Shown: in pieces, positions 20,751-42,071 of the stretch
Numbering within the stretch: the stretch's first letter is position 1
How the letters are laid out: every line of letters begins with the position of its first letter
NCBI RefSeq assembly: GCF_051622035.1
Contig: NC_135366.1
Span: forward strand, 2,821,001-2,885,000
DNA from: Arctopsyche grandis
Taxonomy: Eukaryota; Arthropoda; Insecta; Trichoptera; Hydropsychidae
Direction of reading: 5' to 3'
DNA: 64,000 nucleotides
Notes under the pieces: generated by a model
What the model was told of the DNA's origin: nothing
Database searches by the model: none
Seen by the model: only the letters and a program-made list of their open reading frames with translations
Made by a program: the position numbers and the translations under genes

Positions 20751-21809
20751 TCTAATATATAATTTCGAAAGAGACTTCGTATGTAAGGTTTGGTTAGAAG
20801 AATCTGTGACCAGGATTGCCAGACGTCCCTATTTGAGCCGAGTTCAACAGAAAAATCCCGAGTCCCAAATTGCCTCTGAAAATCCCTACTTAACAAAATT
20901 TGTATATGTACAATAATGTGCGTAAATAGAAATGGTAAATTTCAATCCATTTAAGTCTTGTCCTTAAACCAAACATGAAAATCGAATTTTCTTCAGTTGC
21001 AGAATTAAAAAAAATTATTTAATATTATTTGCAATGTTGACCTTCTATACAAAGATGTCTGTTTATTAAACAAATTTTTATTTAAACATATTCTCAAACA
21101 AGTTAAAAGCTAGGATTTTTTTTTTAATAAAACTGTTATGATTGCATAATTTTTTGCATTTAAACCAAAATATAATTCCTGTAATTGTATCCATTATATT
21201 TTAATAACTGTGATCTCTGTGGATTATTATTAAGCGACTATTTTTTATATGTCCTCATCTACATATATACTTATGTATGTACTTATTTACATACATTATA
21301 ATTTAATTAAAAATATTTTTTTCTTGATTTCTTCATTAATTCTTAAATTATTTTTTTTTTGATCGTTCGAAATAGTGAATATCCGAAATAGTGATTCCCG
21401 ATTCCTGTTTCAGTTCCGGATTCCGATTTCATGTCGGATCTGGATTAATTTTTCAGTTCCAGTTCCGAATTCCTTTTTCAGTTCCGGATCCAGATTCCGA
21501 TTTCAATTCCGGTTCCGGATTCCTGTTTCAGTTCCGATTCCAGATTCCTGTTTCAGTTCCGGAACCCAATTCCTCTTTCAGTTCGGGATCTGGATTATTT
21601 TTTCAGCTCCGGTTCCCTTATATATAATATTAAAAAAATCATCCGCTGTGTTTGTGTAATTCATTTCTGATTAGCTGTCGTTAAATATATATTTTTTTCG
21701 ATTTAAATAAATTTAATAAAAAAAAAACAAATCAATGTTTACTATTAGATTAGCCATGCTTAAGCGGTTTATATTACAAATACTGAGCGAAGCCGGGTAA
21801 AACCACTAG
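20751..21809 (+). mobile_element. Helitron-like element with minisatellite
   Basis: Starts TCTAATATATAATTTCGAAA and ends TGAGCGAAGCCGGGTAAAAC CACTAG before T. The termini match the elements at 28386 and 30232. The interior contains the TTCAGTTCCGGATTCC minisatellite (21392-21618). Confidence 0.65.
21392..21618 (+). repeat. Minisatellite, TTCAGTTCCGGATTCC-type unit
   Basis: About eight degenerate units of 24-30 bp, the same family as 4690-4885. The repeats are open in more than one frame, which explains the spurious F/S/P-rich reading frames here. Confidence 0.75.
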
Positions 21810-21856: not shown

Positions 21857-24800
21857 ATGATTTTCATGTTGGGTTTGATGTCGGCTGTTATGGCAATCAT
21901 CATTGATCCGGAGCACCGAATGCATTTGGAAACAGTTCTACCTCCATATGGTTGCTGCAATAATCAATTTATATGTACCATTACTTTTGCGTTTTTAAAA
22001 CCAAAATTAACTTAAAATATAACATTCGATTTTAGGGATTGTGCCACGGCACGACATATATAAAGCGGCACTTTCTCCAAAGGGAGATGTACAACTGAGC
22101 TGGTGGTTGGACTATGCCACACAATTGGTTACCATAAGGGTGGATTTGAGCCCTGACGAGGACTTCGACTGGTTCGCTGTGGGATTTTCCGATTATGGAG
22201 ATACGAAGAACGCCGATTATTGCATCATGAGACACCTTGATGACGTTGGCGTTATACAGGTATAGAAGTGTTTACCAACACAAATAAATTCTTTATCATT
22301 CTCAAGACATGATGGCAGATCTATAGCATGTAGTGAATTAAAAATGTTTCAAGGATTATATCGCCGATGGTGACGGTCATGTGACACTGGACAAGCATCA
22401 AGATTGTCTGAACCCAATTTGGAACCAAAATCAGAACTACATGCAGTTCTCTAGACACTTCGATACTTGCGACGATGAAGATTATATCATTGAAGTGAGA
22501 ATTTATAGCAGTAGTCAATCGAAATAGTGGTTTCAACTGCTTTATAAATGTATTCGATGTAATTTCAGGAAGGCACCACTCACATCTTGTGGGCTGAAGG
22601 AAAGGGACTGTGTGGACCGCAACCAGATTCGCAAGCTACCCACAAAGGAATGGTGAGAGTACAACTGCTGAAGAACAATGCCACCGCTGAAACAAACCAG
22701 ATATCAAGCATGGACAGTCGTCCGCTGGTCTTCGGCGTTGAAGATGTAAAGGTACCCGGCACAGATACGACCTACTACTGCTCCACCTTCAAGCTACCCG
22801 ACTGGTTGCTAGAAAAACAACATCAAATCATCATGGTGGGTATCTTCCACACTCGCCGTATCAAATATCAAAAACGAATCGAAACAAACTTGATACTTTC
22901 AGTACGAGTCGCTGGTGACGCCGGGAAACGAGGGTCTCGTCCATCACATGGAGATATTCTACTGTGACGCACCCAATGATCATGTGGTCGAAAGTTATGA
23001 GGGACCTTGCGATCAGAAGCCACAGAGTGCCATGGTGTGCTCAAAGGTCCGAGCGGCTTGGGCTATGGGAGCCACACCGTTCCACTATCCGATAGAAGCT
23101 GGATTGTCCATCGGCGGACCTGATTCCAATCCTTCGGTTATGATAGAAGTCCATTACAACAATCCAGATATGAAAGACGGTTTGATTTGTGATATAATAC
23201 ATATTTGTACATAAACATATTAAAAAAAAAGGATAATTATACTGATCTTAAATGTATAGATTGGGTCGACAGTTCTGGAATTCGTCTATTGGTCACGTCA
23301 AAGTTAAGAAAGTACGAAGCATCAATAATGGAATTGGGCCTTGAATATACGGACAAGATGATGATACCTCCGATGCAGCAGTCGTTTCAACTTTCAGGAT
23401 ATTGCACTTCAGCTTGTACTAATACAGTTCGTATTCCCGTGATCATATTTTTTTCATATATTAGAACTGTTTCACGATTGGGGGGTTGTTTCAAATGCTC
23501 GTTACTGATACTGATTGACGTTAGAGATTGACTGAATTTGCAGATGTAAAGTATCAAACAAATATCATATCATACATATATCCGATATTCTGGGTGTCTG
23601 ATTAAGATGACGTTCGCCGTACTATAACACTGAACAACAAAAAAAATTACCAGAGCGCAGACTAACCAATCTTTACTGAGTTTGACACACTGAATTCGAA
23701 TATGATAATGATTTTTGTTGTTTGGGCCTCCTTTACAAGATATGAGGGTTTAAAAAAATGCGCAATTTTTACAGTTTTTTGGCTTTTGCTGTCTTTAATT
23801 CAAAATCTAGTATTGCTGTGCTCAAAGTAAGTATTGTAATCAATAGTCAGATGTTTTTTCTAATGATTGTAATTTTTTATTGTTTTAAAATACGTATAAT
23901 TAGTTTTCTAGCGAATTTTAAAAGTCAAAAATATATATTTTTTCCGGTTTACGAATTCTGGTTTACGAACTTCCGGTTTACGAATTCTGACCAAAACCCT
24001 ACCAGGTCTAAGTTAGTACATAAAGGATAGAAATATAAATTTTCAGCTTAATACGTTCAGGGATGTGGACAGAGTAGTGGGCACAACATTTTCGACCTTT
24101 CCTTTCTAAGAGAAAAAAATCTCACTTCTGGTTTATAAAATTTAATAATTTGTTTTTATTTTCATCTCATTGATACAAGAATTATACTTGAATTTTTTTG
24201 TGACGATCACACATGTTTAAGGGGTCGAACAAAATAGTGGAAGAAAAATCGAACAAGAGTAAAATGCCACTTCCGGTTGACAGATACTTACTAAATTTTA
24301 TATATAAGTTGCTATTAAGCTTAAACTTTTAGATATGAAATTTCAGTTCAACAAACCAAAAGGTTTCTGAGAAAAACATAAAAAACCTCGATTCTCTAGA
24401 GTAAAAGTACTACTTCCGGTTCAGGTAGAAATATTTAAAAAATATAAGGTTATAAAAATTATTATTTCTATCATATTTAAAAAAAATTCAGTCTGATTCA
24501 GTTAGTGGTTTGGGAGATAATTGAATTCAAAAACTTAAAAAAAAGAGGACACCGTATAATTCTTGTAGCAGTGTGATGAAAATAAAAAAAAATTATTAAA
24601 ATTTATAAACCGGAAGTGGGATTTTTTTCCTCGTGGAATGGTTGAAAATGTTGTGCCCACTACTCTGTCCGCACCCCTGAACGTATTAAGCTGAAAATTT
24701 ATATTTCTATCCTTTGTGTACTTACTTAGAGCTGGTAGGGTTTTGGTCAGAATTCGTAAACCGGAAGTAGTATTTTTTTTAAAAACAATATTTCATTATT

Positions 24801-26567
24801 TTTTTATTATTTTATTTTGACCTTTTTAATTGTTTTAAGCTTCTTGATATTTAATGTGTATAATAAAAATAGTGATTTTAAGTAAAAATAAAAAAAAAAT
24901 TACTTAATTTAATGAACCGGAAGTGGGATTTTTTTCCTCGTGGAAAGTTCAAAAATGTTGTGCCCACTACTCTGTTCGCACCCCTGAACGTATTAAGCTG
25001 AAAATTTATATTTCTATCCTTTGTGTACTAACTTAGAGCTGGTAGGGTTTTGGTCAGAATTCGTAAGCCGGAAGTAGTATTTTTTTTTAAAACAATATTT
25101 CATTATTTTATTTTGACCTTTAAAATTGTTTTAAGCTTCTTGATATTTAATGTGTATAATAAAAATAGTGATTTTAAGTTAAAATAAAAAAAAAATTACT
25201 TAATTTAATCAACCGGAAGTGGGATTTTTTCCTCGTGGAAAGGTCAAAAATGTTGTGCCCACTACTCTGTCCGCACCCCTGAACGTATTAAGCTGAAAAT
25301 TTATATTTCTATTCTTTGTGTACTAACTTAGAGCTGGTAGGGTTTTGGTCAGAATTTGTAAACCGGAAGTAGTATTTTTTTTTAAAACAATATTTCATTA
25401 TTTTATTTTGACCTTTAAAATTATTTTTATTTTCTTGATATTTATTGTTAGTGATTTTTAGTAATAAAAAAAATTTGAACAAAATCTGATAACCGGAAGT
25501 AGATATTTTGTTTTGTGCAAGTTTCCATACATTTGCGCTCAATTTGTATCGCTATCATAGTCATCAGTTCAATATCGAATTTTGTTTTGTAACCTTCTTA
25601 TATTCATCAAATACATAGATAAAGTCATGGGTTGGTCACACCCGAATTTTTTTCATATAATATACCCCCCCGCACCCTAGAAAGTCATTCCTTAGTGGTC
25701 AAAAAATTTGCCCCCCACGCTGAGAAAAGCTGAAATGACGCCCCTGATATATTTTGTATATAAATTTAATATATTTGGTATATAAATTTAAAGGGTCTTC
25801 CAGAAGGTGGAATCATAGTATTTGGATCTCAATTGCACACTCACTTGACGGGAACGGCAGTCGAGACTCGCCATTATAGAGACGGGAAAGAGCTGCCGAT
25901 GTTAAATCAAGACAAACACTACAGCACTCACTTTCAAGAGATTCGCATCTTGAAAAGATTCGTACACATAAAGCCGGTAATATAACATACATTATTATAC
26001 ACATGAATGTATGCATATTTCGATCGGTACGTATTGAGTCATGGGTATGTATGTGATTGAAGGGTGATCATCTCGTCACCTCGTGCAATTACAAGACCAT
26101 GGACAGACCGAACATTACGTTTGGGGGACATTCGATACAAGACGAAATGTGCGTCAACTATATTCACTATTATCCCGCTACTACTTTGGAAGTTTGCAAG
26201 AGTTCCGTCAGTACTGAAGCTCTGAAGAATTTCTTCGATTTTGAGACTAAGTATGTTGATTTTTATTTTTTTGATGATGATGCAGTATGAGTGTTTTTTA
26301 TTTTTATTTTTATTTTTGTTTCTTAGTGAAAATGGTGTGACAATTAACGACAATATGACGATGAGAGAGAAGTATGGAGCGATTCCGAGCTGGAGTCCGT
26401 TGATGGTGGACACGTTGACGCTCTTATTCGACAACCAATCGATCGCTATGCAATGCAATACTTCAAGCGGAGAACGATTCCCTGGAAAGTGGGATCCGTC
26501 TGAGAAAGATATTGTTTTGACTAGATTGCCGACGATAAATACAAGGCAATGTCCATCAGTTAAATAA
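21857..26567 (+). CDS. DBH-like monooxygenase (MOXD1 type)
   Basis: Secreted or lumenal copper- and ascorbate-dependent monooxygenase family (DBH/PHM); the substrate is unknown. Exons: 21857-21950, 22036-22259, 22354-22494, 22569-22835, 22903-23179, 23260-23426, 25794-25976, 26063-26250, 26327-26567; 593 residues, normal for the family. A signal peptide (about residues 1-13) is followed by a DOMON domain (about 33-150) and the two monooxygenase domains. Copper ligands are visible: HHMEIFYC (256-263), His326 in EVHYNNP, His405/His407 in QLHTH, and Met480 in DEMC. All key ligands are kept, so the enzyme is probably active. No C-terminal membrane anchor is seen. Intron 6 (2.4 kb) is filled with the ACCGGAAGT repeat. 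Poly(A) signal AATAAA at 26826. The last exon is duplicated at 39539-39757. Confidence 0.93.
23935..25520. repeat. Tandem repeat array with recurrent ACCGGAAGT motifs
   Basis: Three tandem units of about 300 bp (starting near 24671, 24976 and 25276) carry a CTGAACGTATTAAGCTGAAA block, a GGTAGGGTTTTGGTCAGAAT block and paired CCGGAAGTAG / CCGGAAGTGG motifs. An inverted, diverged part covers 23935-24500. The family recurs at 42700-43025 and 62280-63070. The array lies in intron 6 of the DBH-like gene. Confidence 0.75.
25650..25750. mobile_element. Fragment of a CAGGGGCGTCATTTC-type element (reverse)
   Basis: GCTGAAATGACGCCCCTGAT and the neighbouring CTAGAAAGTCATTC block are shared, inverted, with 51770-51840. 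Confidence 0.5.
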
Positions 26568-26831
26568 GCCACTATATTATCTTGCTTGTTAATCAAATTA
26601 AATCATGTAAATTGTTTCATTTGTGTGTTGTGATTTAAACAATATTAAGAAAGAAATTCTTTTAACATCAATACCTATTGTATTGATGAATGTAAAATAC
26701 TATAATGATCTGTATAAATATTTTCTTGAGCTGTTGTGTGAACAATAATTATTATTGTGTAAAAATTAATGTACCTACATTATGTGTATGTACTATATTA
26801 TATTACATTTATGAAATTTGAATTAAATAAA

Positions 26832-27625
26832 GATGATATTTCTAGTATAAAGAATGATATACATATACATATATACATATATGTATTCTTGTTGATAAAA
26901 AAATACAAAATATGTTAATTAAATCTCCATTTTATTTACAATACTTTTACATAATACTCGTATAATATGGGTGCAATTAACAAGAACTTTTCGAGTAGAT
27001 ATACAATATACTTATGCATATGTACATTTATGTATAAGCAATTGTACTATACATACATATATAGTCCGATACAGGAAAATTAATTTGGTCTGGACAAGTC
27101 CAATTCATGCATTAAAGCCGTTTCCCTGATCAAGATAAATTCATTAGTATATTTTATCATACAATGTAGTGGCTTGATAAAAGGTTTTTGAATATAACTA
27201 GTAAAATTCTAAATTCAAATCTGTAATACATATGCACATATCTACTGGTTAATAATAAACAAATTAACTATCGAGCAATGAAATCCTCATAATAATTAAA
27301 TTTTAAAAATCGAAAAGTTCTTGCATATATATTATATTATATTTAATAACTTTACTGACACTGTGACGCATCCATTAATATATACATACATAGTATGTTG
27401 AACTTAAAATGAGGTAATACAGATTAAACCTCAGCCAAACACACAAACATACACACTAATTTTATGCATTAATAGATTAAAGTGAACACATAAAAATCTA
27501 AACAATAATTCACTATTTGTTCTTAGATGTATTTTTATTATTATTATTACACATTTTAAAGCTTGAATGATTGTGAATACTTATTTAATGTATATTTGTA
27601 CTAAAATATATTGCTCTTCTTAAAT
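26832..27625. other. Tail-to-tail spacer between DBH-like and AIP-like 3' ends
   Basis: AT-rich, no frame supported; fully inside the duplicated block, so it occurs again at about 40020-40673. Confidence 0.6.
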
Positions 27626-28304
27626 TCATGTAAACATATTCTTTAATTTCACCCGATCTTTGTCATCTTGTTCTTTTTGCATAGCTTCAAGTTCTTTGAG
27701 CGATTTGTTTATTGCCGTGTTCAACGAGGAATCCAATTCTTTCAATCTTTGAAAGTCTTTTATTGCTGCGGCTGGACTCCAAGCACCCATGTGAGCTTTA
27801 GCTCTTTTATACAACGCTTTTACATTATCTATGGACAAAAATCTTAAGAAAAATCAAAAAAATATATCAAAAATTAAGAGAATATGCTTTAACAAACCTG
27901 GTTCAGTTTCTAGTACTGTAGTACAATGTTCAATGACTGCATAAAAATCGCCCTGAGCGAGTTTACATTGAGAGTAATTCAATAATAATGGTAGTTTTAA
28001 ATTGTTTATATTTTTCCAATCTACGTCGTGCGGTTTTTCTCTGAAACACCAAACCAAATATATCTAATACTATTTGTACGATTGAATTTATACAAGGTTA
28101 ATCAAAAATTAGCACACTTAAGCATTAATTGTTCACAAAAGCAAATCGCCTCGGAATAAGCATCAGCAGCTTCTGAATAAAGCTTATCTTTGAATAAATT
28201 ATTTCCTTTTTCTTTAAGTACAGGTATCGCCGTTAGCTTCTCATCGTCGCTCAATTGCCAAGAGTCTTTGCAGTAATCCTCAGGAAATTCAACTTTTAAA
28301 AGTT
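27626..28304 (-). pseudogene. AIP-like gene, truncated copy (3' exons only)
   Basis: Three exons on the minus strand, 28118-28304, 27898-28040 and 27626-27828, encode the TPR half of the co-chaperone and match the last three exons of the complete gene at 40674-42071. Exons 1-3, which encode the FKBP-like domain, are missing: similarity stops at 28379 and a Helitron-like element begins at 28386. Splice sites and reading frame are still intact, so it is either a very recent pseudogene or could be captured as a 3' end by another transcript. No promoter is visible. Confidence 0.85.
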
Positions 28305-28859
28305 CTATAAACATAATACTTTATATAATTTCAAATAATCATTAAATAAATTTATTTAAAAAAAAAAGTAATGTAATACTAGTAATCTAATATATAATTT
28401 GGAAAGAGACTTTGTATGTATGTATGTATCCTTGGTTTGTTCGTTCGTTGGTATGTTCGTCGTCCGTAGATCGGTGACGTCATCGAACAAATGATCCGAT
28501 TTTTTTTTTTTCGATTCATAGACGCCGATTCGATTTTTCGGGCGAAGCCCTAAACGGCAAGAAGGGCTCAGAAGGGCGCCGAGGGCGAAGCCTTAGAAGG
28601 CAAAGTCTCAGGGGGGCGCCGAGGGCGAAGCCCTAGAAGGAAATAAAATAAAAAAACAAAAAAATTCAAAATTTTAGATTAGTCATGTTTAAGCTGTTTA
28701 TATTATAAACTAGTGTTGGACCCGTTGATTTCAACGGGTGGTTTCGAAAAGGAATTGAAACTCGAATAAAAATAAAGTTAAAGATATTGAATCGACTGGT
28801 TTCGGAAAGAAATTGATGCACGAATTACGAAGTGATTACGAATTACGAACTACGTTTTG

Positions 28860-29655
28860 TGCATCGCCGACCTCCTGACGCCTTTGCCCCCGATGCCTCC
28901 GTCGCTCCGGGGCCTTCGGCCCCAGCGCCGCCGGCGCCCCCGACGCCTTCGGCACCCCGGGGGCTTCGCCCCCCAGCGCCGCCGACGCCTCCGGCGCCCC
29001 CAGCACCCCCGATGCCTTCGGCACCCCGGGGGCTTCGCCCCCAGCGCCGCCGACGCCTCCGGCGCCCCCGACGCCTTCGGCACCCCGGGGGCTTCGCCCC
29101 CAGCGCCGCCGACGCCTCCGGCGCCCCCGACGCCTTCGGCACCCCGGGGGCTTCGCCCCCAGCGCCGCCGACGCCTCCGGCGCCCCCAGCACCCCCGATG
29201 CCTTCGGCACCCCGGGGGCTTCGCCCCCAGCGCCGCCGACGCCTCCGGCGCCCCCGACGCCTTCGGCACCCCGGGGGCTTCGCCCCCAGCGCCGCCGACG
29301 CCTCCGGCGCCCCCAGCACCCCCGATGCCTTCGGCACCCCGGGGGCTTCGCCCCCAGCGCCGCCGACGCCTCCGGCGCCCCCAGCCCCCCCGATGCCTTC
29401 GGCACCCCGGGGGCTTCGCCCCCAGCACCCTCGATGCCTTCGGCACCCCGGGAGCTTCGCCCCCAGCGTCCCCGATGCCTTCGGCACCCCGGGGGCTTCG
29501 CCCCCAGCGTCCCCGATGCCTTCGGCATCCCGGGGGCTTCGCCCCCAGCGCCGGCGACGCCTCCGGCGCCCCCAGCGCCCCGATGCCTTCGGCACCCCGG
29601 GGGCTTCGCCCCCAGCGCCGCTGACGCCTTCGGCGCCGCCAGCGCCCCCGGAAAT
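28860..29655. repeat. GC-rich minisatellite, about 54-69-bp unit
   Basis: More than ten units built from GCCGACGCCTCCGGCGCCCC, CGATGCCTTCGGCACCCC and GGGGGCTTCGCCCCC. The last is a perfect 6-bp GC stem with a TTC loop, repeated in almost every unit. Composition is unlike the AT-rich surroundings. All frames stay open for long stretches, producing spurious A/P/G/R-rich open frames. Confidence 0.9.
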
Positions 29656-30032
29656 GAAAAAACTGAAAAAATGAAAAAAATGAAAAAACTGAAAAAATGA
29701 AAAAACTGAAAAAATGAAAAAAATGAAAAAAATGAAAAAACTGAAAAAATGAAAAAACTGAAAAAATGAAAAAACTGAAAAAAATGAAAAAACTGAAAAA
29801 ATGAAAAAAATGAAAAAACTGAAAAAATGAAAAAAATGAAAAAACTGAAAAAATGAAAAAAATGAAAAAACTGAAAAAATGAAAAAAATGAAAATTATGA
29901 AAAAAATGAAAATTATGAAAAAAATGAAAATTATGAAAAAAATGAAAAAAACTGAAAAAACCTGAAAAAAACTGAAAAATATGAAAAAACTGAAAAATAT
30001 GAAAAAATGAAAAAACTGAAAAAATGAAAAAA
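29650..30032 (+). repeat. GAAAAAACT / GAAAAAATG tandem array
   Basis: About 380 bp of 9-13-bp units such as CTGAAAAAATGAAAAAA. It follows the GC-rich block directly. Confidence 0.9.
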
Positions 30033-30404
30033 AAAAATTTTTGTTCCCCATACTGGTTGACGGTTGATCGTCCGTCACATATATACATATATACAAATAT
30101 ACAAATATACAAATATACAAATATACAAATAAATATACAAATATATTTAGCGACAGTCCGTTTTTATATATATTATACTGAGCGAAGCCGGGTAATACAG
30201 CTAGTCTATCTTCTTCTTCTTCTTTCTTCTTTCTAATCTATAATTTGGAAAGAGACTTTGTATGTATCCTTGGTCGTCGTTTTCGTCGTTTTCGTCGTCG
30301 TCGTCGTCGTCCGTAGATCGGTGACGTCATCGAACACGTGATTCGATTTTTTTTTTTTCGATCCATGGGCGCCGATTTGTTTTTTTCGTTTCAATGGATT
30401 CACC

Positions 30405-30990
30405 CCCGCGGGGGCGCAAGGCGAGTAGCTTCATGGGGCCCCGCCAGGGGCGCCACAAGGGGCGCAGCCCCGTGGGGCCCCAGCCTCATGGGGCGCAGCC
30501 CCATGGGGCTCAAAAGGGGGCGCCACAAGGGGCGCAGCCCCGTGGGGCCCCGAAGGGGGCCCGGGGGGCCCAGCCTCATGGGGCGCAGCCCCATGGGGCT
30601 CAAAAGGGGGCGCCACAAGGGACGCAGCCCCGTGGGGCCCCGAAGGGGGCCCGGGGGGCCCAGCCTCATGGGGCGCAGCCCCATGGGGCTCAAAAGGGGG
30701 CGCCACAAGGGGCGCAGCCCCGTGGGGCCCCGGGGGGGCCCAGCCTCATGGGGCGCAGCCCCATGGGGCTCAAAAGGGGGCGCCACATGGGGCGCAGCCC
30801 CGTGGGGCCCCGAAGGGGGCCCGGGGGGCCCAGCCTCATGGGGCGCAGCCCCATGGGGCTCAAAAGGGGGCGCCACAAGGGGCCCAGCCTCATGGGGCGC
30901 AGCCCCATGGGGCTCAAAAGGGGGCGCCACAAGGGGCGCAGCCCCGTGGGGCCCCGAAGGGGGCCCGGGGGGCCCAGCCTCATGGGGCGC
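30405..30990. repeat. GC-rich minisatellite with GCCCCATGGGGC palindromes
   Basis: About six units of 55-90 bp, each with GCCCCATGGGGCTCAAAAGG and GGGCGCCACAAGGGGCGCAG. Perfect palindromes recur. Long open frames on both strands are a by-product. Confidence 0.9.
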
Positions 30991-30994
30991 AAGC

Positions 30995-31548
30995 CCTAAT
31001 AGGCATTAACTAAGGGGGGCGAAGCCCTAGACGGCAATTAATCATGGGGGCGCGGAGGGGCGAAGCCCTAAAAGGCAACTGATCATGGGGGCGAAGCCTT
31101 AGACGGCATTTAATCATGGGGGCGCGGAGGGGCGAAGCCCTAAAAGGCATTAACTAAGGGGGGCGAAGCCCTAAACGGCAATTAATCTTGGGGGCGCGGG
31201 GGGCGAAGCCCTAAAAGGCATTAACTAGGGGGGGCGAAGCCCTAGACGGCATTTAATCATGGGGGTGCGGAGGGGCGAAGCCCTAAAAGGCATTAACTAA
31301 GGGGGGCGAAGCCCGAAACGGCAATTAATCTTGGGGGCGCGGGGGGCGAAGCCCTAAAAGGCATTTACTAAGGGGGGCGAAGCCCTAGACGGCTTTGAAT
31401 CATGGGGGCGCGGAGGGGCGAAGCCCTAAAAGGCAACTGATCATGGGGGCGAAGCCCTAAACGGCAATTGCTCATGGGGCGTGGAGGGGCGAAGCCCTAG
31501 AAGGCAAAGGCTCAGGGGGGTGCCGAGGGCGAAGCCCTAGAAGGCAAA
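30995..31548. repeat. Minisatellite of GGGCGAAGCCC hairpins
   Basis: Around 14 units of 35-45 bp: GGGGCGAAGCCCTAAAAGGC alternating with ATTAATCATGGGGGCGCGGA. Each contains GGGC-GAA-GCCC, a short hairpin whose core GCGAAGCC also occurs in the 3' terminus of the host element. Confidence 0.85.
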
Positions 31549-31757
31549 AAAAAATTTTGATTTTTTTTTTTTGATTTTTTTAAATTTTTTTTTTTGATTT
31601 TTTTTTTTTTTGATTTTTTTTTTATTTTTTTTTTTATTTTTTTTTTTATTTTTTTTTTAAATTTTTTAATTTTTTTTTTTTTTTTAATTAAATTAGCTTA
31701 GTCATGTTTAAGCGGTTTATATTATAAACACTGAGCGAAGCCGGGTAATACAGCTAG

Positions 31758-32521
31758 TTTACTATAAGATAAAGCCAGGACAGTCGTTTTAAAATTTATC
31801 GACTACGACTATGACAGTAATAAAAATAATAGTGATTCTCAAAAGATGAAAATTAAAGGAATTACTATTTTCTAAATTGTCATAAATTGTCAGTTATAAC
31901 GATTTTCCAAATTGTCAATTTTAAATGCTTTACACAATCAACATTATGACGTAATATTAGAGTACTAGTGAATATCCCGATGATATATCATCGCATGGGT
32001 ATAAAATTATTATATACTCGTATAAAACTAAAAAAAAATCCGGAACCAGTCAAAATATAAATAATTTAAATTTAATTAAAAATAAATATATAAAAAAATG
32101 GTTCAAAACCTCGCTAAATGAAATTATTAAAATTACGTATTTTTATATGGTGAGAAGGAATATTTTGTGGCGGCTCGCTTATACGACATGGTCGAGTTTG
32201 GTTGCCTTCCTGCGAGTGGGGACCAACCCGGCTGGGTTCGGAGAGCTGCTACCCACTCCGTCTTCAGCTGTCATATAATAAACACGTGCATTAACATGCC
32301 AGTCGTCTCATTCGTTCATCCCCTATAATTTCAATTAATGTTTAAAAAAAAAAAGACGAAATGAAGAATTGGATTTGGCGTGATGTTCGTGACCATTAGC
32401 TCAATTTAGACCTATATTCAGGCTAATTTAGATGATTGGTTCGAGTCGCGGCAAAGTCGACTCGACGAAAAATTAATTTATCGTTTTTTATCGATTCATT
32501 CATTATGTTCGGCGAGAGTTA

Positions 32522-32585
<64 letters not shown>

Positions 32586-34089
32586 GCGTAGTTTTTTATC
32601 AAACTTAGTTTTGATAAAAAAAATAGTAATATCTTAGATGCGTACTCCATGATACTTCTCACCAAAGGATTGTGAGAACACAAAACAGCCTCAGAAATGC
32701 CAGGAATTGCGAAAAACAAACCCGTAGACATCTCACTCCAGTTTCGTTCAAAATGTCATGACAGGTTTAGCCGTATAAAACCAATTCACTCTACCGTGCG
32801 TAAAAAGAGTGGAACTATCAAAAATGAAAAAAAAAGATTAATCAAAAGAAATACCGATTCTTTAAGTAAATCCAAATAATTCAAATTTGTATGTGAAAAA
32901 ATATATATAAAGAAATATTACATTTCAGAAGCGCTGGTATAAAGAAAATTCCAGAAATTCATAATATTAAAGAAATATTTTGACTACTTTGAATAAATAA
33001 TTAAGAAAATAAAAAAATAAAAATAAATTAAATAATTGAGAAACGTTTCTTGAAATTGTTGACAATTACTGAAAACATAGATGAATAAAATTATCCCATA
33101 AAAATACTATTAAACTTATTAAAAGTGTGAAAAAACACCTTAAAATCAGTCGAAAATCATTGAAAACACAAAAATATGTATTTATCAAAAATTTTTATCG
33201 GAGACTCTGGTAGTATTTGAAAATTGTTTATTGACAAGAAAAAAAAAAGGTTTTCTTCGCCGAAGAGAGCGTGAAAAACAATTCTACAAACCATTTAAGA
33301 ACAACTGGAATTTAATAAGTGGACGGAAATCTGTGAAATCATTTGAATTTTTTCAAGTCACATTATTTGGAAATTAACTTTAGGATAAAAACATATTAAT
33401 AAAAAAAAAGTTTCAGAGCCACTGACATTAACATATTGATTAATTCTCATAAAAGTTAACAATACTAGAAAATTTCACAATTCGATAAAAACCACGATAT
33501 AACAGAATAAAAATGGAAAAGTACCTTCGTATAATCATTTGAGAGCCGTTGGAATGTAGCAAATTGCAAAAACATATATGAAATTCATCTTCATTTTTAA
33601 ATAAAAGTTATAATTATGAAAAGTTTGAGAATCACTCAATGAATAATGGAAAATAACGGAAATGTTGAGAATATTTGACAGTTTGACTGTTTGAAATAAA
33701 TTTAAAGAAATATACAAAATTTATTTTCAATTTAAGTCACTTTTAATTTAATTTTAGGAATTTAAAGTTTTATTATTTAAACAAGAAAAATTATAAGAAA
33801 TGAAATATAACATTTCTGGATTGAATTGAATTGAATTCATTTTTATGTTTAAAATATGTATGTATGTATATGTTTTTGATTTTGGCAATTCTCTGATTTT
33901 TCAGTTCATTTAGATAATATTAATTATTCATGTAAATAAACATTAAATATTCACAGAAAAATAAAATATATTTTGAGAAGTTGTTGCATATTATGTATTT
34001 ATTCAAACATTTGGATACATTCAAAAAGTACATTTAATGATTAATTCATGTTACACTTTATTTAAATAATACAAAAAAACTGCAGTCGA
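31758..34089. other. Intergenic, no gene supported
   Basis: AT-rich. ACTAGTGAATATCCCGATGA at 31965 looks like a Helitron 3' terminus in reverse (stem CGATGATATATCATCG). Positions 32166-32330 have an LTR-like look (TGTGGCGG..., AATAAACACG) but no clear ends. A (CA)n tract lies at 32524-32583. A basic 60-residue frame at 32697-32879 resembles nothing known to me. Confidence 0.5.
32524..32583. repeat. (CA)n microsatellite
   Basis: About 30 CA dinucleotides. Confidence 0.9.
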
Positions 34090-36471
34090 TCAAATAATCG
34101 AATCATATGGGATGACATGTGCAACCGCAAATTCTCTCGTTCTGCTCAGACTTGTTGAAGTTTTCCAAGATTTGTTCGTCTCGTCGTATTCCCAAACATC
34201 ACTTTTATTGTTTCCACCTGAAAATCAAAACAATAAATTAATTCTACATTCAAGACCCATAAATTCAACTTAAGTTGCTAAAAAAACTCACCCATGCTAA
34301 ACAGTTTATTTAGGAACCAGCAGAGAGTGACTCCGTATATAGATATCGGTAGTTTGGTGAATGCAGTCCACACATTTGCATTCGGATCGTAATGCTCCAC
34401 ACTGTCTAAATTAGAAGAAGTTTGCAAATCATATCCACCAGCGACGTAAAGTTTCCCTTTGAATGCGATGCACTAAAATGGTGAAATCAAAATTTAGTTA
34501 ATTTTATTTTGGAGAGTTGTATATTATTTGCGATAGTTGTGAATAAAATTAATTGATGTTCACCGAATGATTATGTCTTCTCTGAATCATCTGAGCGCGG
34601 TAAGTCCAAGAATTGGTCGCCACTGAATACATCTGCACTTTATTCGTGGATATCCTTTTTCTGTTTTCATTTGTACGCCCGCCTGTTATGTATATTTTAT
34701 CGGCGATGACAGAAGCACTCTGATCACGAACTGCCACCAACAATGGAGCGATGATCTTCCAATCCCTAGTGTTGGTATTCCACCTAATCGAAATCAATAA
34801 TCGAATCGTCAACTTCTCTTTCAATCGATCTGATGAAATGATTGCAATTTAATCACCTTTCCACTGAAGATAAAAAGCCATTATCATAACCACCAATGGC
34901 GTAAACATCCGTGGACGAATCGCGCCGAAGTGTCACTGCTGATAAGTCATAACGAGCTTGATTTAACGGCTTCAATGGCTGTTTCTGACCGCTTTTCAAA
35001 TCGATGTATTCCACCTGAAAACAAATAAATTGGTTATATTCCGATTTCTCTAAGCAGGTACTTCGTGACACCGGAAAACGTTACTGAAGTCACTGATTCA
35101 TTTGAAGAATTATATCCGCCGATGATAACGATCCAATCTCCCACGAGGACAGACGCAAAAGAATGTTTATTTATTCCAATGTTTTTGGATAGAGTCCAAC
35201 TGTTATTTAGTCCGTCAAATATGTCGATGGTGTTTGCCACCTGAAAACACGTTATGCAATAAAATAATTAATTTACAATACAATCAAAATATTATACTTG
35301 TGATACAAAACTCACATGAATACCCCATCCCCCAACCAGTGCCATTTTTTGTATTTTGCTACGAGGGGTCTCTCTTGGGACGAAAGATTTATCATTCTTG
35401 TTTATAATTTCTTGTCTAATAGTGGTCATACACTCTGCACACGAATGACAGAACGTCATTACTACGTTGATGATAAACTGAAAATATAACACATTATTCG
35501 AATGATTTTCATCACTAAACTGTAACATTCATTTAATTTCAAATACCTCCACCGACAGCAAGGATAACCTCACGGATCTCATCAGCTGTGCCAAGTTACT
35601 TTTACGGTTAGCATTATCATGATTTACCCACAATTTCACAGCATTGAATACGCTTTCTTCGGAAGGTACGTTCAAATAATTCGATTTCAAGATTTCGATC
35701 ACGTTGGAGACCGGCAGTTTGAGAAAACCTTGAGTTTTGTGCAGCTGAAACAGAAGTGGAATTGAAAAATATTTAAGTGACATATTTTTTTATATTTATT
35801 TATTTATTTTATTCTAAACAGACCATTGTGGCATAACAGGAATTCCTAAAGCGCCACAATGGTCAAAATAATCCACACTCACCGTTTCGAAGTTTTCCAG
35901 AGTCAAATACATTGCCTTTTTTAATAATTCGGAATCTCCCGTTGATTTCAAAACGTTCAGACAATTAGATTTATTTACTGTTTTAAACTGTGGTGGAATT
36001 TTCACTTCGAGTAGATTGGCTAGCTCCACTAATTTCTTGCGGTGTTTGTCTCCTATGTCTAAAATTATATTTAAATGATTGCATTTAATGACGAAATCTC
36101 GTATTTGAAATTGATTATTTTAGATATTTATGAACTCGTACTTATTTCTCCAGTGTAACAATACTTTAGGATTGCATCGATAACTTCGTAGTCAAATTGT
36201 GACATAATCCCCTCCACTAGACCTTCGTGTGTCCCAAAGAATTCGCTACACGCCATTAGAATGATCAAGTGTGCGGGGAACCTGCAATTATTTAATAGGA
36301 TAATTAAACTGACGAAACGATTTGGATTTCAAATACTTTTGGATTCGAATTAGGATACATTCGGCCTCGAACAGTAAAAGCGGTATCGCATTTCTTATCT
36401 TGTTGCATGGCCTCATACAAATACTCCACCCGTTTTGCAGCAAAATTGGAACTCGCCTTCACTATTAACAT
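34090..36471 (-). CDS. Kelch-like protein (BTB-BACK-Kelch), 10 exons
   Basis: Probable substrate adaptor of a Cullin-3 ubiquitin ligase, or an actin-associated Kelch protein; the family does not fix which. Exons in transcription order: 36359-36471, 36142-36281, 35883-36058, 35547-35744, 35316-35477, 35085-35240, 34860-35014, 34564-34783, 34292-34472, 34090-34217. All join in frame to 542 residues. An N-terminal BTB domain (KKCDTAFTVRG, FPAHLIILMACSEFF) is followed by BACK (LPVSNVIEILKSNYL, VFNAVKLWVNH) and six Kelch repeats with diglycines: ALVGGWG, VIIGGYN, YAIGGYD, YITGGRT, YVAGGYD, FSMGGNN. The size is a little short for the family because the region before BTB is minimal. The intron before exon 3 junctions and repeats is compact, unlike neighbouring genes. 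It lies between the two copies of the 2-kb duplication. Confidence 0.92.
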
Positions 36472-38383
36472 CTTGTTTCTGATTTTCTCTTAGATTTCTC
36501 CTGAAAAACAAAGTTGAAATTTATATAAAAAGACAATATAACTATAAGTGCTGAGCATTATAAAGTTCGACTTACCAATTGGAAAGATTAGCAGCGAATG
36601 ATGTGGAGCTCTGTCGTTCTGCGGTTTTATCTCGATAGATAAGGATATCTCAACCCTTTCGTTGCATTGAAACGTATATTAATTATTTACTGAAGTTAAT
36701 TATTTCTCATAAATGCCATAGTGCCATGACAGGTGACCAACATACAGGGAATATATAATTGAACTTTAGTTTAGATTAGGGCTGTGGAGTCGGATCAGTA
36801 TTTACCGAATCCGACGTTTTGCTATGATTCGACTCAGACTCGAATATATTATAGTATGATCGACTTTTCTTGCCATCTTATAAAATTGTTAAAAATGAAA
36901 ATAATTGCGATATTTAAAATATAAAAAAAATTAAAGGAATTACAAAAAAATCACTAAAAATTATAAAATAAAAAAAAACTCAAGTAAAAAAAAACTGTAG
37001 TAAAAAAATAAATGTATTTACTAAAACTGTAGTAATAAAATAATGTACTAAAATATAAATAAAATAAAAAGGCAATTTAAACAATATTGAAACTACAAAT
37101 GTACAAATATGTGAGATTTCAAGATTAATATTTCAATCAAAGAGTTTTCAATGAAAATTATGATCCCGGCTTAAACTAATGTAATTAAATATATTACTAA
37201 GAGGTTTGGGCCGCATGTGATAATATATGTACGTATGTGATGATTTTTTAAAAATTACCATGTTACCCAATTTATCGAATTATTGGTAAATAAATATTTA
37301 AGTACATCAAATACGTGCTAGTCAACTATTTTATTAATAAGGTAAATTAAATAAGGTTAAAATAAGCAAAGTAACGTTAAGTTATTTTATTTATTTATTC
37401 ATAATCATTGAAAAGAATGAATTTATTTTTATTCCCTCTCAATTTTGTAATAAACGTTATCTTTAAATAAACAAAATTTTTTAATAGTGATGGCTAAAAT
37501 GAATAATTTGAACAAAGATGTTGTGTCTGGATTGGTATTTGGATTTTGATTTATGAAATTTCAATGATTAAATTTTAAAAGCGATATTCACATATTTTGC
37601 AGGAATAAAAACAGTTTTTCGAGTTTTTTGAAACGAACTTACAGGTAAAAGGTTAGCGTTTGATTATTTACGCGGATGTGGCATTATACTACAGACAAAC
37701 ATGTTTTTACAATAATAATAAAAAACCGCATGGAAATAACCACTCAATAACAATAATATTAAAATAATCGTCTTCTCACAGATAAAACACATTTATAAAT
37801 TAAAAATAAGATCATCTATTATAGAACTCGACAAACTACTCAAATCCGCCATGCATATTTTGGACTTAAAAGGAATAAAATTTAAAGTAATCAATTAATA
37901 AGAATTGATGAATAACCGAAAAATGTATTTTCTTCAAGATATGTAATTTCAATGATAGTGGAAAAACCGCACAAAAAAACAACCGACTACTGAAAATAGA
38001 AGAAGGATTGTTGACACTGGTTTTAACTCTTATCTATAATATTATATTATATACTAAATGCATTGCTCCGATGCTAATTCATTTTATTTTCGTTTATAAA
38101 CACGAAATAATTTTAAATAATGTGTATTAAATTTGAGGTCTTTTCTTAAGTTTTTGGATTCAATCGTCTCATAAGTCACTCAACGGATTGAGATGAATCG
38201 TAAAAGTTATGATAGATAAAAGTAATGATAGTCCTTTCAAAAACGTATAACTGACGCTAACATATCTGGTAGTTATTGTATATCTATATATTTAAATGAA
38301 AGGAACAGGAAAGAAACCTGCAAAGATCAAAAACGTTTATCGACTTGGAAACAATCCAATTTGAATTTGTTAGATCAGCATAC
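36472..38383. other. Upstream of the Kelch gene; nothing firm
   Basis: The 5' untranslated region and promoter of the Kelch gene should lie in 36472-36700; no TATA box stands out. GGGCTGTGGAGTCGGAT at 36779 is the terminus of a dispersed element (see 60523-60985), without a matching right end. The remainder is AT-rich and unrecognised. Confidence 0.5.
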
Positions 38384-38476
38384 GATGAAATCAATTTGTC
38401 CATTTATCCAGCTATCCGAGCTGAAACTCAAATTACAGCGATTATTCGCATATCCGAGAATCGCTAATATTATGGG

Positions 38477-38479
<3 letters not shown>

Positions 38480-38535
<56 letters not shown>
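38480..38535. repeat. (AT)n microsatellite
   Basis: About 27 AT dinucleotides in an intron of the micro-exon array. Confidence 0.85.
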
Positions 38536-38543
<8 letters not shown>

Positions 38544-38548
38544 TATAT

Positions 38549-38588
38549 AGTCACACCGATTAATATGTGTATATTAATCGGTGTGACT
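38549..38588. repeat. Hairpin with 17-bp perfect stem
   Basis: AGTCACACCGATTAATA and its reverse complement are separated by 6 nt. One arm overlaps the donor side of the type II exon at 38592. Confidence 0.85.
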
Positions 38589-38820
38589 TACTCAGTTATT
38601 GAGGACGCAGCCTCTCCATTGGACCTGAAAGTAAAGTGGTTGTAATTGTTATTGTAATTGTCTACCATCGATAAATAATATTAGCAGTTACTACTTAGAT
38701 TTCAGATAGCATGGCCCAGCCCCGATTTTTGTTTTCAGAACCGTATCAGAGCTGAAATTTAAAATAATTCGATTAATAACAATATATGTGATTTACTATA
38801 AATAATCATACGTATAATAG

Positions 38821-39211
38821 TGGTCTCCGTGATGAGACAGAATGTTAAACGACAGAAAACGCAAATATCGAAAATCGAAAGATCTTAAGTCGAAAGATCA
38901 AAAAAAAAATGGTGCATGGTAAACGGTACATACTCACTTAATTTGCGCGAGCAGGATACAACAGGAACAAGAGGAACAGACTTTTCCTCCCGTATTAATG
39001 TGCGCGCGCAGAATACGGGAGGAAAAGCATGTTCCTCTTGTTCCTGTTGTATCCTGCTCGCGCAAATTAAGTGAGTATGTACGTGAGTATGTACCGTTTA
39101 CCATGCACCATTTTTTTTTTGATCTTTCGACTTAAGATCTTTCGATTTTCGATCTTTGCCTTCCGATATTTGCGTTTTTTGTCGTTTAACATTCTGTCTC
39201 GTCACATAGAC
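38821..39211. mobile_element. Foldback element (391 bp)
   Basis: Arms of more than 150 bp fold on each other: GTTAAACGACA, ATCGAAAGATCTTAAG, GTTTACCATGCACC, centre CTCCCGTATTAATG. A CGTATAATAG-like direct repeat flanks it (about 38811 and 39212). Related to the nested elements at 5041-5715. Confidence 0.75.
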
Positions 39212-39538
39212 CCGTATAATAGATATAAGCAGTTACAACTTACGTTGCGTATGTGATCGAGCTTTCACTTTTTGTTTCGGAATCACAATCTGAGCTGAAA
39301 TTTATAAGCGATTGAGATTATTAATAGATATCCAAGAATCGATAATAATACAGAAACAATATATAAATTTACTCGTTTGACGACGTTGGTGTCTCGGTGA
39401 TGGACCTGAAAGAAAAGTGATTGTAATTATGAATATTGACAATCATTGCTAAATAATCATACTCGTACATTGAAACTTACATTTCCGATGGCGATGCCGA
39501 GCTTCGACTCTACATTTTCACACCGAGCTGACTTTCCG

Positions 39539-39757
39539 GACAATATGACGATGAGAGAGAAGTATGGAGCGATTCCGAGCTGGAGTCCGTTGATGGTGGA
39601 CACGTTGACGCTCTTATTCGACAACCAATCGATCGCTATGGAATGCAATACTTCAAGCGGAGAACGATTCCCTGGAAAGTGGGATCCGTCTGAGAAATAT
39701 ATTGTTTTGACTAGATTGCCGACGATAAATACAAGGCAATGTCCATCAGTTAAATAA
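39539..39757 (+). pseudogene. Duplicated last exon of the DBH-like gene
   Basis: Carries the final 72 codons of the DBH-like protein without any upstream exon. Two amino-acid changes are seen relative to 26349-26567: AMQC to AMEC and SEKD to SEKY. The open frame extends left by chance into the micro-exon region (39446). No acceptor precedes it, so it should be dead as coding sequence. Confidence 0.85.
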
Positions 39758-41426
39758 GCCACTATATTATCTTGCTTGTTTATCAAATTAAATCATGTAA
39801 ATTGTTTCATTTGTGTGTTGTGATTTAAACAATATTAAGAAAGAAATTCTTTTAACATCAATACCTATTGTATTGATGAATGTAAAATACTATAATGATC
39901 TGTATAAATATTTTCTTGAGCTGTTGTGTGAACAATAATTATTATTGTGTAAAAATTAATGTACCTACATTATGTGTATGTACTATATTATATTACATTT
40001 ATGAAATTTGAATTAAATAAAGATGATATTTCTAGTATAAAGAATGATATACATATACATATAAAAAAATACAAAATATGTTAATTAAATCTCCATTTTA
40101 TTTACAATACTTTTACATAATACTCGTATAATATGGGTGCAATTAACAAGAACTTTTCGAGTAGATATACAATATACTTATGCATATGTACATTTATGTA
40201 TAAGCAATTGTACTATACATACATATATAGTCCGATACAGGAAAATTAATTTGGTCTGGACAAGTCCAATTCATGCATTAAAGCCGTTTCACTGATCAAG
40301 ATAAATTCATTAGTATATTTGAGCGATGAAATCCTCATAATAATTAAATTTTAAAAATCGAAAAGTTCTTGCATATATATTATATTATATTTAATAACTT
40401 TACTGACACTGTGACGCATCCATTAATATATACATACATAGTATGTTGAACTAAAAATGAGGTAATACAGATTAAACCTCAGCCAAACACACAAACATAC
40501 ACTCTAATTTTATGCATTAATAGATTAAAGTGAACACATAAAAATCTAAACAATAATTCACTATTTGTTCTTAGATGTATTTTTATTATTATTATTACAC
40601 ATTTTAAAGCTTGAATGATTGTGAATACTTATTTAATGTATATTTGTACTAAAATATATTGCTCTTCTTAAATTCATGTAAACATATTCTTTAATTTCAC
40701 CCGATCTTTGTCATCTTGTTCTTTTTGCATAGCTTCAAGTTCTTTGAGCGATTTGTTTATTGCCGTGTTCAACGAGGAATCCAATTCTTTCAATCTTTGA
40801 AAGTCTTTTATTGCTGCGGCTGGACTCCAAGCACCCATGTGAGCTTTAGCTCTTTTATACAACGCTTTTACATTATCTATAGACAAAAATCTTAGTAAAA
40901 ATCAAAAAAATATATCAAAAATTAAGAGAATATGCTTTAACAAACCTGGTTCAGTTTCTAGTACTGTAGTACAATGTTCAATGACTGCATAAAAATCGCC
41001 CTGAGCGAGTTTACATTGAGAGTAATTCAATAATAATGGTAGTTTTAAATTGTTTATATTTTTCCAATCTACGTCGTGCGGTTTTTCTCTGAAACACCAA
41101 ACCAAATATATCTAATACTATTTGTACGATTGAATTTATACAAGGTTAATCAAAAATTAGCACACTTAAGCATTAATTGTTCACAAAAGCAAATCGCCTC
41201 GGAATAAGCATCAGCAGCTTCTGAATAAAGCTTATCTTTGAATAAATTATTTCCTTTTTCTTTAAGTACAGGTATCGCCGTTAGCTTCTCATCGTCGCTC
41301 AATTGCCAAGAGTCTTTGCAGTAATCCTCAGGAAATTCAACTTTTAAAAGCTCTATAAACATAATTCTTTATATAATTTCAAATAATCATTTAATAAATT
41401 TATTTAAAAAAAAAGGAATGTAATAC
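39539..41426. repeat. 2-kb segmental duplication, right copy
   Basis: Matches 26349-28379 apart from scattered substitutions and a net 142-bp deletion. It continues without a break into the upstream exons of the complete AIP-like gene, so for AIP this is the original setting. Confidence 0.9.
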
Positions 41427-42071
41427 CAATGATAAATTCTAGATCGCACGGCTTTGCTATTAGCGCGTTCAGATCTTTATATCCAATTCCCTCGTTTTGT
41501 AATGTAACGGCGCAAAAATGTGTCCGACGTTCACTAACATCTTTATCGAGATCTCTCATAGTTTTAGATATGAAAGGATATTCCACGACCAACTAAATTG
41601 TAATATTAAAGACAAAATTATATTTATTGTAATGTGTGGCATGAATAGAATGGTGAGGAATGCGTACACTTTTATCGACGGTAAACTTTGCAACTTCGTT
41701 GATGGCCATCTTTTTGACCAAAAGTTCCCATGTTTCGAGTTTGAACTTTTTTCCGAGTACTAAAACCATCGGTTCTTTTTTACCTATTTGACGGCTGTCG
41801 TCGATAAGAGTGTTATCTGCATCCGTTTTCCTAGTCTGGAAGTGGAAGTGGACCTGAAATTTGTCACAAGAAAGTTTAAAATTCATAAAAAGAAATTCAA
41901 ATCAAAAATTTAGCTTGACTTGGGTTAGATTGTTCTAGAACTGTTATATATTTTACAATGAATCAATAATTAAAATTCACTCACCTTGCAACCATCTTTT
42001 AATGGTTTGAAAGACGATCCAGGATGTAAAATTTTCTTTTTAATCAAACAATTGTCTATATCTGGATTCAT
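40674..42071 (-). CDS. AIP: AIP-like FKBP/TPR co-chaperone, complete
   Basis: Homologue of aryl-hydrocarbon-receptor-interacting protein, a cytosolic HSP90 co-chaperone. Exons in transcription order: 41985-42071, 41668-41853, 41427-41592, 41166-41352, 40946-41088, 40674-40876; all join in frame to 323 residues (human AIP is 330). An FKBP-type fold without the usual catalytic set covers about residues 20-150 (PMVLVLGKKFKLETWELLV), followed by three TPR motifs (EKGNNLFKDKLYSEAADAYS, LLLNYSQCKLAQGDFYAVIE, NVKALYKRAKAHMGAWSPAA) and a C-terminal charged helix ending KNMFT. The TPR part should bind the EEVD tail of HSP90. A truncated copy is at 27626-28304. Start ATG at 42071; no TATA box seen. Confidence 0.92.

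Follow-up and report, generated by a model that had tools for sequence, protein, structure and literature searches.

How could an 11-kb block of DNA that carries a complete, intron-containing gene come to lie between two neighbouring genes and leave both of them whole? This question is raised by a 64-kb stretch of the Arctopsyche grandis genome (C12:2821001-2885000 of its own assembly; the window, whose positions give all coordinates below), in which the block, here called X, is flanked on both sides by the same 2-kb sequence from the end of a DBH-like and an AIP-like gene. A preliminary description of this DNA had proposed a giant target-site duplication around captured foreign DNA. Our analysis points instead to a tandem duplication with a large insert of resident DNA, made by template switching or faulty break repair or replication, a reading to which we give a probability of roughly 0.55. 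The layout is defined by the following features.

26349..28379, plus strand: core copy A, with the last DBH-like exon from nucleotide 23, the shared 3' DNA, AIP-like exons 4-6 (numbered as read here; the last three) and intron 3
28380..39538, no strand assigned: inserted block X, 11 kb, a mosaic in which resident repeats are combined with part of a Kelch unit
39539..41426, plus strand: core copy B, without 24 nt and 118 nt that copy A has
21857..26567, plus strand: DBH-like gene, which uses copy A; start codon approximate, exon order read, no full spliced model
40674..42071, minus strand: AIP-like gene, which uses copy B; exons identified, no full spliced model

Self-BLAST and a base-by-base alignment placed the two core copies in the same orientation on either side of 28380-39538. 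They matched at 99.0% over 1,107 and 96.5% over 806 aligned columns in self-BLAST, and the alignment gave 14 substitutions in 1,888 aligned bases (it listed 15 in 1,889, of which the last column, position 28380, was left out as the first base of the block). The 143 gap columns fall into indels of 24 nt, 118 nt (27155-27272, present in copy A only) and 1 nt (near 28369). Similarity of this degree is far beyond chance, and the claim that one 2-kb sequence lies on both sides of X is borne out, coordinates included. The A-B-X-B-C layout is likewise real. The own assembly (475,669,232 bases in 189 contigs) was then searched for window sequences. Counts from these searches are lower bounds, with part of the candidates scored: 28 of 6,183 for the Kelch unit, 40 of 2,978 for the block repeats and for a donor of the whole block, 40 of 1,660 and 40 of 3,198 for the Helitron, and 150 of 340 for the BACK domain. 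Across the 475.7 Mb, 11 matches to the core were listed; three of them are the two copies themselves and the eight others are merely 31-118 nt long. The core was found at two places only, both of them in the window.

Such a layout would also result if an assembler had joined haplotypes with and without X end to end, and a core divergence of 1% with two indels is plausible for two alleles of an outbred animal. False duplications are documented in assemblies (PMC9516828). The window is, however, free of N (its G+C content is 34%; an Rfam scan and a tRNA scan gave no matches), and the assembly has 13 chromosome-sized contigs (C1-C13) of 29.5-42.7 Mb each, next to smaller ones such as C14 (26 kb) and C15 (128 kb). 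No second haplotig of the core was found in the assembly search, nor one of X among the candidates scored. Assemblers usually join by overlap, and the right join has no sequence overlap. We consider an assembly artefact unlikely.

The limits of the duplication fall inside genes. The gene pair lies tail to tail, the DBH-like gene reaching into the left copy and the AIP-like gene extending out of the right one. Copy B begins 22 nt into the last DBH-like exon, which copy A holds from its 23rd base, and both copies end (28379 and 41426) where AIP-like exon 3 (exon number as read here) has its splice donor, which reads GTATTAC in minus-strand orientation. The reciprocal splitting that had been described, with the AIP-like gene cut at an exon/intron border and the DBH-like gene 22 nt into its last exon, therefore stands, "whole" being judged by exon order. 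DBH-like exons matched DOMON (below the Pfam cut-off) and both Cu2-monooxygenase models, in order, and one AIP exon matched PPIase_AIP. The locus shows how a complete intron-containing gene can come to lie between two working genes with neither of them broken, because the flanking duplication restores the part that would otherwise be lost. Coding differences between the copies (in the DBH tail two amino-acid replacements, in the AIP exons a single silent substitution) are too few to be informative. In the DBH-like gene region we also observed a tandem array of a 295-bp unit (24579-25448), related to repeats at 62.2-63.0 kb.

What lies between the copies was read as four main parts, the last contained in the third.

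28386..31757, plus strand: composite tandem Helitron, with 5' ends at 28386 and about 30232, 3' CTAG ends at 30204 and 31757, and G+C-rich internal tandem repeats
31954..32583, no strand assigned: dispersed repeat, at 19 other places among the 40 candidates scored, split by a 162-bp unit at 32166-32327
32723..39538, minus strand: Kelch-unit fragment, with 27 other scored places; cut at 39538, left end unlike its relatives
34090..36471, minus strand: intact Kelch gene of 10 exons with GT-AG introns, 543 aa, matching BTB, BACK and Kelch

The genome-wide search with X covered the block outside 28721-30139, 30331-31757 (partly matched on C9) and 38471-39538 (compared with two relatives, L024 and L025). 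Most of the searched part matches other places in the same genome, and the claim that the block is foreign DNA is therefore not supported. Nor is a viral origin: the Kelch unit, the Helitron and the other repeats are all resident. The intact intron-containing Kelch gene of the preliminary description is real, with its ten exons and its BTB-BACK-Kelch matches. The Helitron family is dispersed genome-wide, often head to tail, with the 3' end GGGTAATACAGCTAG leading into a 5' end, for instance TCTAATCTATAATTTGG. The internal tandem repeats of the composite (28886-31550) are G+C-rich, about 60% over 29-31 kb, and contain long spurious ORFs; a further Helitron copy, at 20751-21809, has both ends and closely precedes the DBH-like gene. 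The 162-bp unit is identical to many copies genome-wide and looks like a solo LTR of a very recent short element, probably of LTR type, because copies elsewhere are often paired about 930 bp apart.

The Kelch unit informs on the ends of X. Its 27 other places comprise 20 on C6 (18 at 1.79-4.35 Mb and two at 6.54-6.55 Mb), three on C9, two on C13 and two on C10, and the sequence of 16 distinct places was examined. To the left of 32723, all 13 loci compared differ from the window; 12 of them share one common upstream sequence and one (L018) has another. At the right end both far-reaching loci, L024 and L025, run beyond the position of 39538 into sequence that they share. A C9 copy matches 32863 to 39534, and two C10 copies match 33664-38088 and 34627-38107; these three and the window fragment (32723-39538) do not share one pair of ends. 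X has no fixed ends, since its relatives continue at the right, differ at the left, and three dispersed copies stop elsewhere; the Kelch unit was cut at an arbitrary point. A single transposon was rejected as the identity of X, the ends varying among copies. Also rejected was a continuation of a longer duplication later split by the Helitron, X being unlike what follows copy B or precedes copy A. With the flanks beyond the copies X shared only dispersed repeats, microsatellites and weak A+T-rich matches.

We next consider the junctions, beginning with the left one.

28373..28385, plus strand: left junction, GTAATAC/TAGTAA, in which GTAATAC is common to the complement of the AIP splice donor and to the Helitron 3' end (GGGTAATACAGCTAG)

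The sequence across this point is GTAATAC / TAGTAA / TCTAATATATAA in copy A and GTAATAC / CAATGATAAATTC in copy B. The preliminary description had Helitron ends exactly at this junction; a Helitron end is indeed nearby, but the 5' end, a TC end following an A (A then TCTAATATATAA, at 28385/28386), starts at 28386, six bases inside. The TAG(T) that follows GTAATAC may be a remnant of CTAG-T. Because GTAATAC is present both in the AIP donor complement and in the Helitron 3' end, the left junction was likely mediated by microhomology, which would explain both the cut at the exon border and the Helitron end at the junction. Plus-strand GTAATAC occurs 13 times in the window, and a coincidence within a few nucleotides has a probability of about 1 in 1,000 by our own uncorrected estimate. 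Eight loci (L036-L038, L043-L047) showed tandem Helitron joins in which GTAATAC stands beside the 5' end. A search for the pattern CTAGTAA followed by the Helitron 5' end returned 93 matches at up to 2 mismatches, two of them exact, and none for the control. Ten other CTAGTAA contexts were read by eye: one (L060) is preceded by the 3' end of the Helitron family found in X, three (L057, L063, L067) by a hairpin-like end of another kind, and the rest by unrelated flanks.

At the right junction, L025 reads GACTTTCCG / AACTG, the window GACTTTCCG / GACAATATG, and copy A AACGACAATATG; judged from these sequences it looks like a blunt join with no overlap with the donor family. L024 departs from the window four bases earlier, at a small gap of its own where a short stretch is missing. 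The last bases of X, up to 39538, are CTTTCCG, without CTAG and without the CTRR of a Helitron 3' end.

These ends bear on the possibility that the Helitron with its 5' end at 28386 had bypassed its own 3' end and carried the Kelch fragment along. Helitron insertion is not known to leave a target-site duplication, let alone one of 2 kb. The TC end after an A at 28386 and the Kelch fragment downstream are as such a read-through would leave them. The right end without CTAG is not, nor is the 2-kb duplication that flanks X. In addition, the six bases before the Helitron 5' end agree with copy B at just three positions, and neither a donor copy nor the same Helitron-Kelch join was seen among the 40 candidates scored. 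The Helraiser report (PMC4778049) describes that Helitrons can bypass their own 3' end and carry flanking DNA. The window resembles that capture in having a Helitron terminus near a junction and a gene fragment downstream; it differs in that its far border lacks a new Helitron 3' end and in its target duplication, which is not expected there. We therefore regard read-through as highly improbable. A Helitron terminus at a breakpoint is not by itself a sign of transposition.

The giant target-site duplication of the preliminary description would require opposite-strand nicks about 2 kb apart, capture of an X fragment and fill-in. Its geometry fits the window exactly. It predicts nothing beyond template switching, however, and X consists mostly of resident DNA with no recent donor. 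With no fixed ends and no CTAG at the right, there is no reason to prefer it to a plain duplication that took up an insert. We also looked for direct repeats bracketing three other dispersed Kelch fragments. Self-BLAST of one C9 and two C10 stretches revealed none, except in L027, in which a common fold-back element occurs twice, at the edge of the Kelch fragment and inside it. This comparison is weak, and a kilobase duplication could have escaped it, because the flanks were 0.9-9 kb a side and 3 of the 27 places were covered. We judge the giant target-site duplication to be very unlikely.

Replicative template switching yields the layout in one step and is the best-supported reading, at slightly better than even odds. 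From the arrangement of the copies and the junction sequences we infer a single event, its direction and its use of microhomology. After copying the stretch where DBH and AIP meet tail to tail, repair synthesis would have abandoned the AIP template at the exon 3/intron 3 border and entered the Helitron array through the shared GTAATAC. It would then have run through the adjoining repeats into the Kelch-gene unit before returning to the locus at a point 2 kb upstream, within the last DBH exon, and copying the 2 kb again. The outcome would be a DBH and an AIP gene each whole once; between them would lie an additional Kelch gene and the redundant tails of AIP and DBH. Afterwards the donor would have disappeared, or gene conversion would have kept the core copies similar. 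A wider version, in which Helitron arrays serve as recurrent microhomology entry points for copying Kelch-cluster fragments into single-copy gene pairs, in one step, with kilobase target duplications and with the neighbours intact, seems to us quite unlikely.

Several observations weigh against template switching, the first of them concerning time. All divergences are of substitutions only. Between the core copies 11 of about 1,148 non-coding positions differ (0.96%). Non-coding X differs from L011, its nearest fetched relative, at about 154 of 2,738 positions (5.6%), the lowest of the nine loci summed (sums were made from rounded rates, for 9 of 18 loci). No recent donor was found for X, given 5.6% from the nearest fetched relative versus 1.0% between the core copies. 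Among the Kelch candidates scored no other place was more than 91% identical over at least 600 nt, and the 40 candidates scored for the whole block included no donor for it. Two stretches of X, 31758-31953 and 32584-32722, had no match elsewhere among these 40. At the left, the join lacks the AGC expected from exact use of GTAATAC, and the CTAGTAA part is not specific, because it is found elsewhere before the 5' end without GTAATAC. At the right, uncut donor sequence comes from L025 alone because L024 is gapped there. If duplication and insertion were one event, then the donor has been lost or the core copies have exchanged sequence since. In favour of the template switch, four of the 14 core substitutions are crowded into the last 78 of the 1,888 aligned bases, at the right edge of the core and next to the left junction (P about 0.002; 0.004 if either edge is counted). 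Error-prone synthesis at the junction would give such clustering, and so would gene conversion fading out towards the limit of homology.

A history in several steps is a less probable alternative. A larger plain tandem duplication could have included X as an old neighbour, and been followed by deletions (of the AIP 5' half or the DBH 5' part, and of the other X) and by later Helitron and LTR insertions. This would need no donor elsewhere, and it fits both the mismatch between 5.6% and 0.96% and the stretches of X unmatched among the candidates scored. It requires at least two further deletions, however; a second X was not found among the candidates scored, and X resembles neither the AIP exons that lie to the right of copy B nor the DBH exons to the left of copy A. 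We hold the stepwise history to be doubtful, though worth keeping in view.

The rearrangement is real and tidy, and of an already known kind. In the PCAWG report (PMC7025897), cycles of templated insertions re-replicate a host segment with DNA from elsewhere between the copies. The window shares with them a host segment duplicated around an insert from elsewhere. Unlike those tumour events it was seen in an assembled genome, and no donor of recent identity was found for it, so that copy-and-paste is not proven; Kelch relatives exist, at a non-coding divergence of at least 5.6% in the nine loci summed. Complex chromosomal insertions, as presented in PMC5120786, likewise place a segment at a non-adjacent locus. 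Those are human constitutional cases, whereas the mechanism proposed here is inferred only. Confirmed by reads, the locus in the window would be a clean case of duplication with insertion, in a genome whose Kelch family has been heavily amplified. Patch-mediated double-strand break repair also combines insertions with direct duplications; its duplications are short, tens of bases, as against 2 kb here.

The Kelch coding sequence is intact in 15 of 15 copies (the window and 14 relatives), a count biased by the choice of the 14 best-scoring of the 27 places. The BACK-domain search gave at least 151 matches over the 13 large contigs. With Kelch genes so heavily amplified, one more dispersed copy is therefore unremarkable by itself. 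Nine BACK-domain matches of nearly equal score lie in series on C2, at 26.04-26.23 Mb. Two further features were read in the upstream part of the Kelch unit.

38821..39212, no strand assigned: fold-back (MITE-like) element, an insertion within the Kelch unit, between CGTATAATAG copies at 38811-38820 and 39213-39222
39223..39538, minus strand: remnant of GT-AG-bounded short exons (33 and 51 nt), read by eye; relatives continue into an ATG exon past the cut

The fold-back element is absent from L024 and L025, both of the fetched relatives that cover the site. Exons of 33 and 51 nt are repeated at about 67% identity upstream of the Kelch gene in 38414-39538 and in L025 (7337-8313); from their arrangement they could belong to a mini-exon gene that is cut in the window.

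Among the 15 Kelch copies, exons were more divergent than introns in 105 of 105 pairs (means of 11.0% and 6.0%, about a twofold difference; the pairs are non-independent). Relative to the window copy, dN was 0.097-0.149 and dS 0.113-0.179, with introns at 3.3-9.1%. All codon positions of the exons diverge alike, dN is about equal to dS, and synonymous sites also exceed introns, a pattern familiar from snake-venom genes. The family looks, from these sequence comparisons, to be under diversifying or exon-targeted evolution. Literature on Kelch expansion offered nothing usable for this genome, and the excess of exon over intron divergence is worth separate study. Elsewhere in the window, exons at 14836-16001 resemble a valyl-tRNA synthetase gene (a weak Val_tRNA-synt_C match, below the cut-off).

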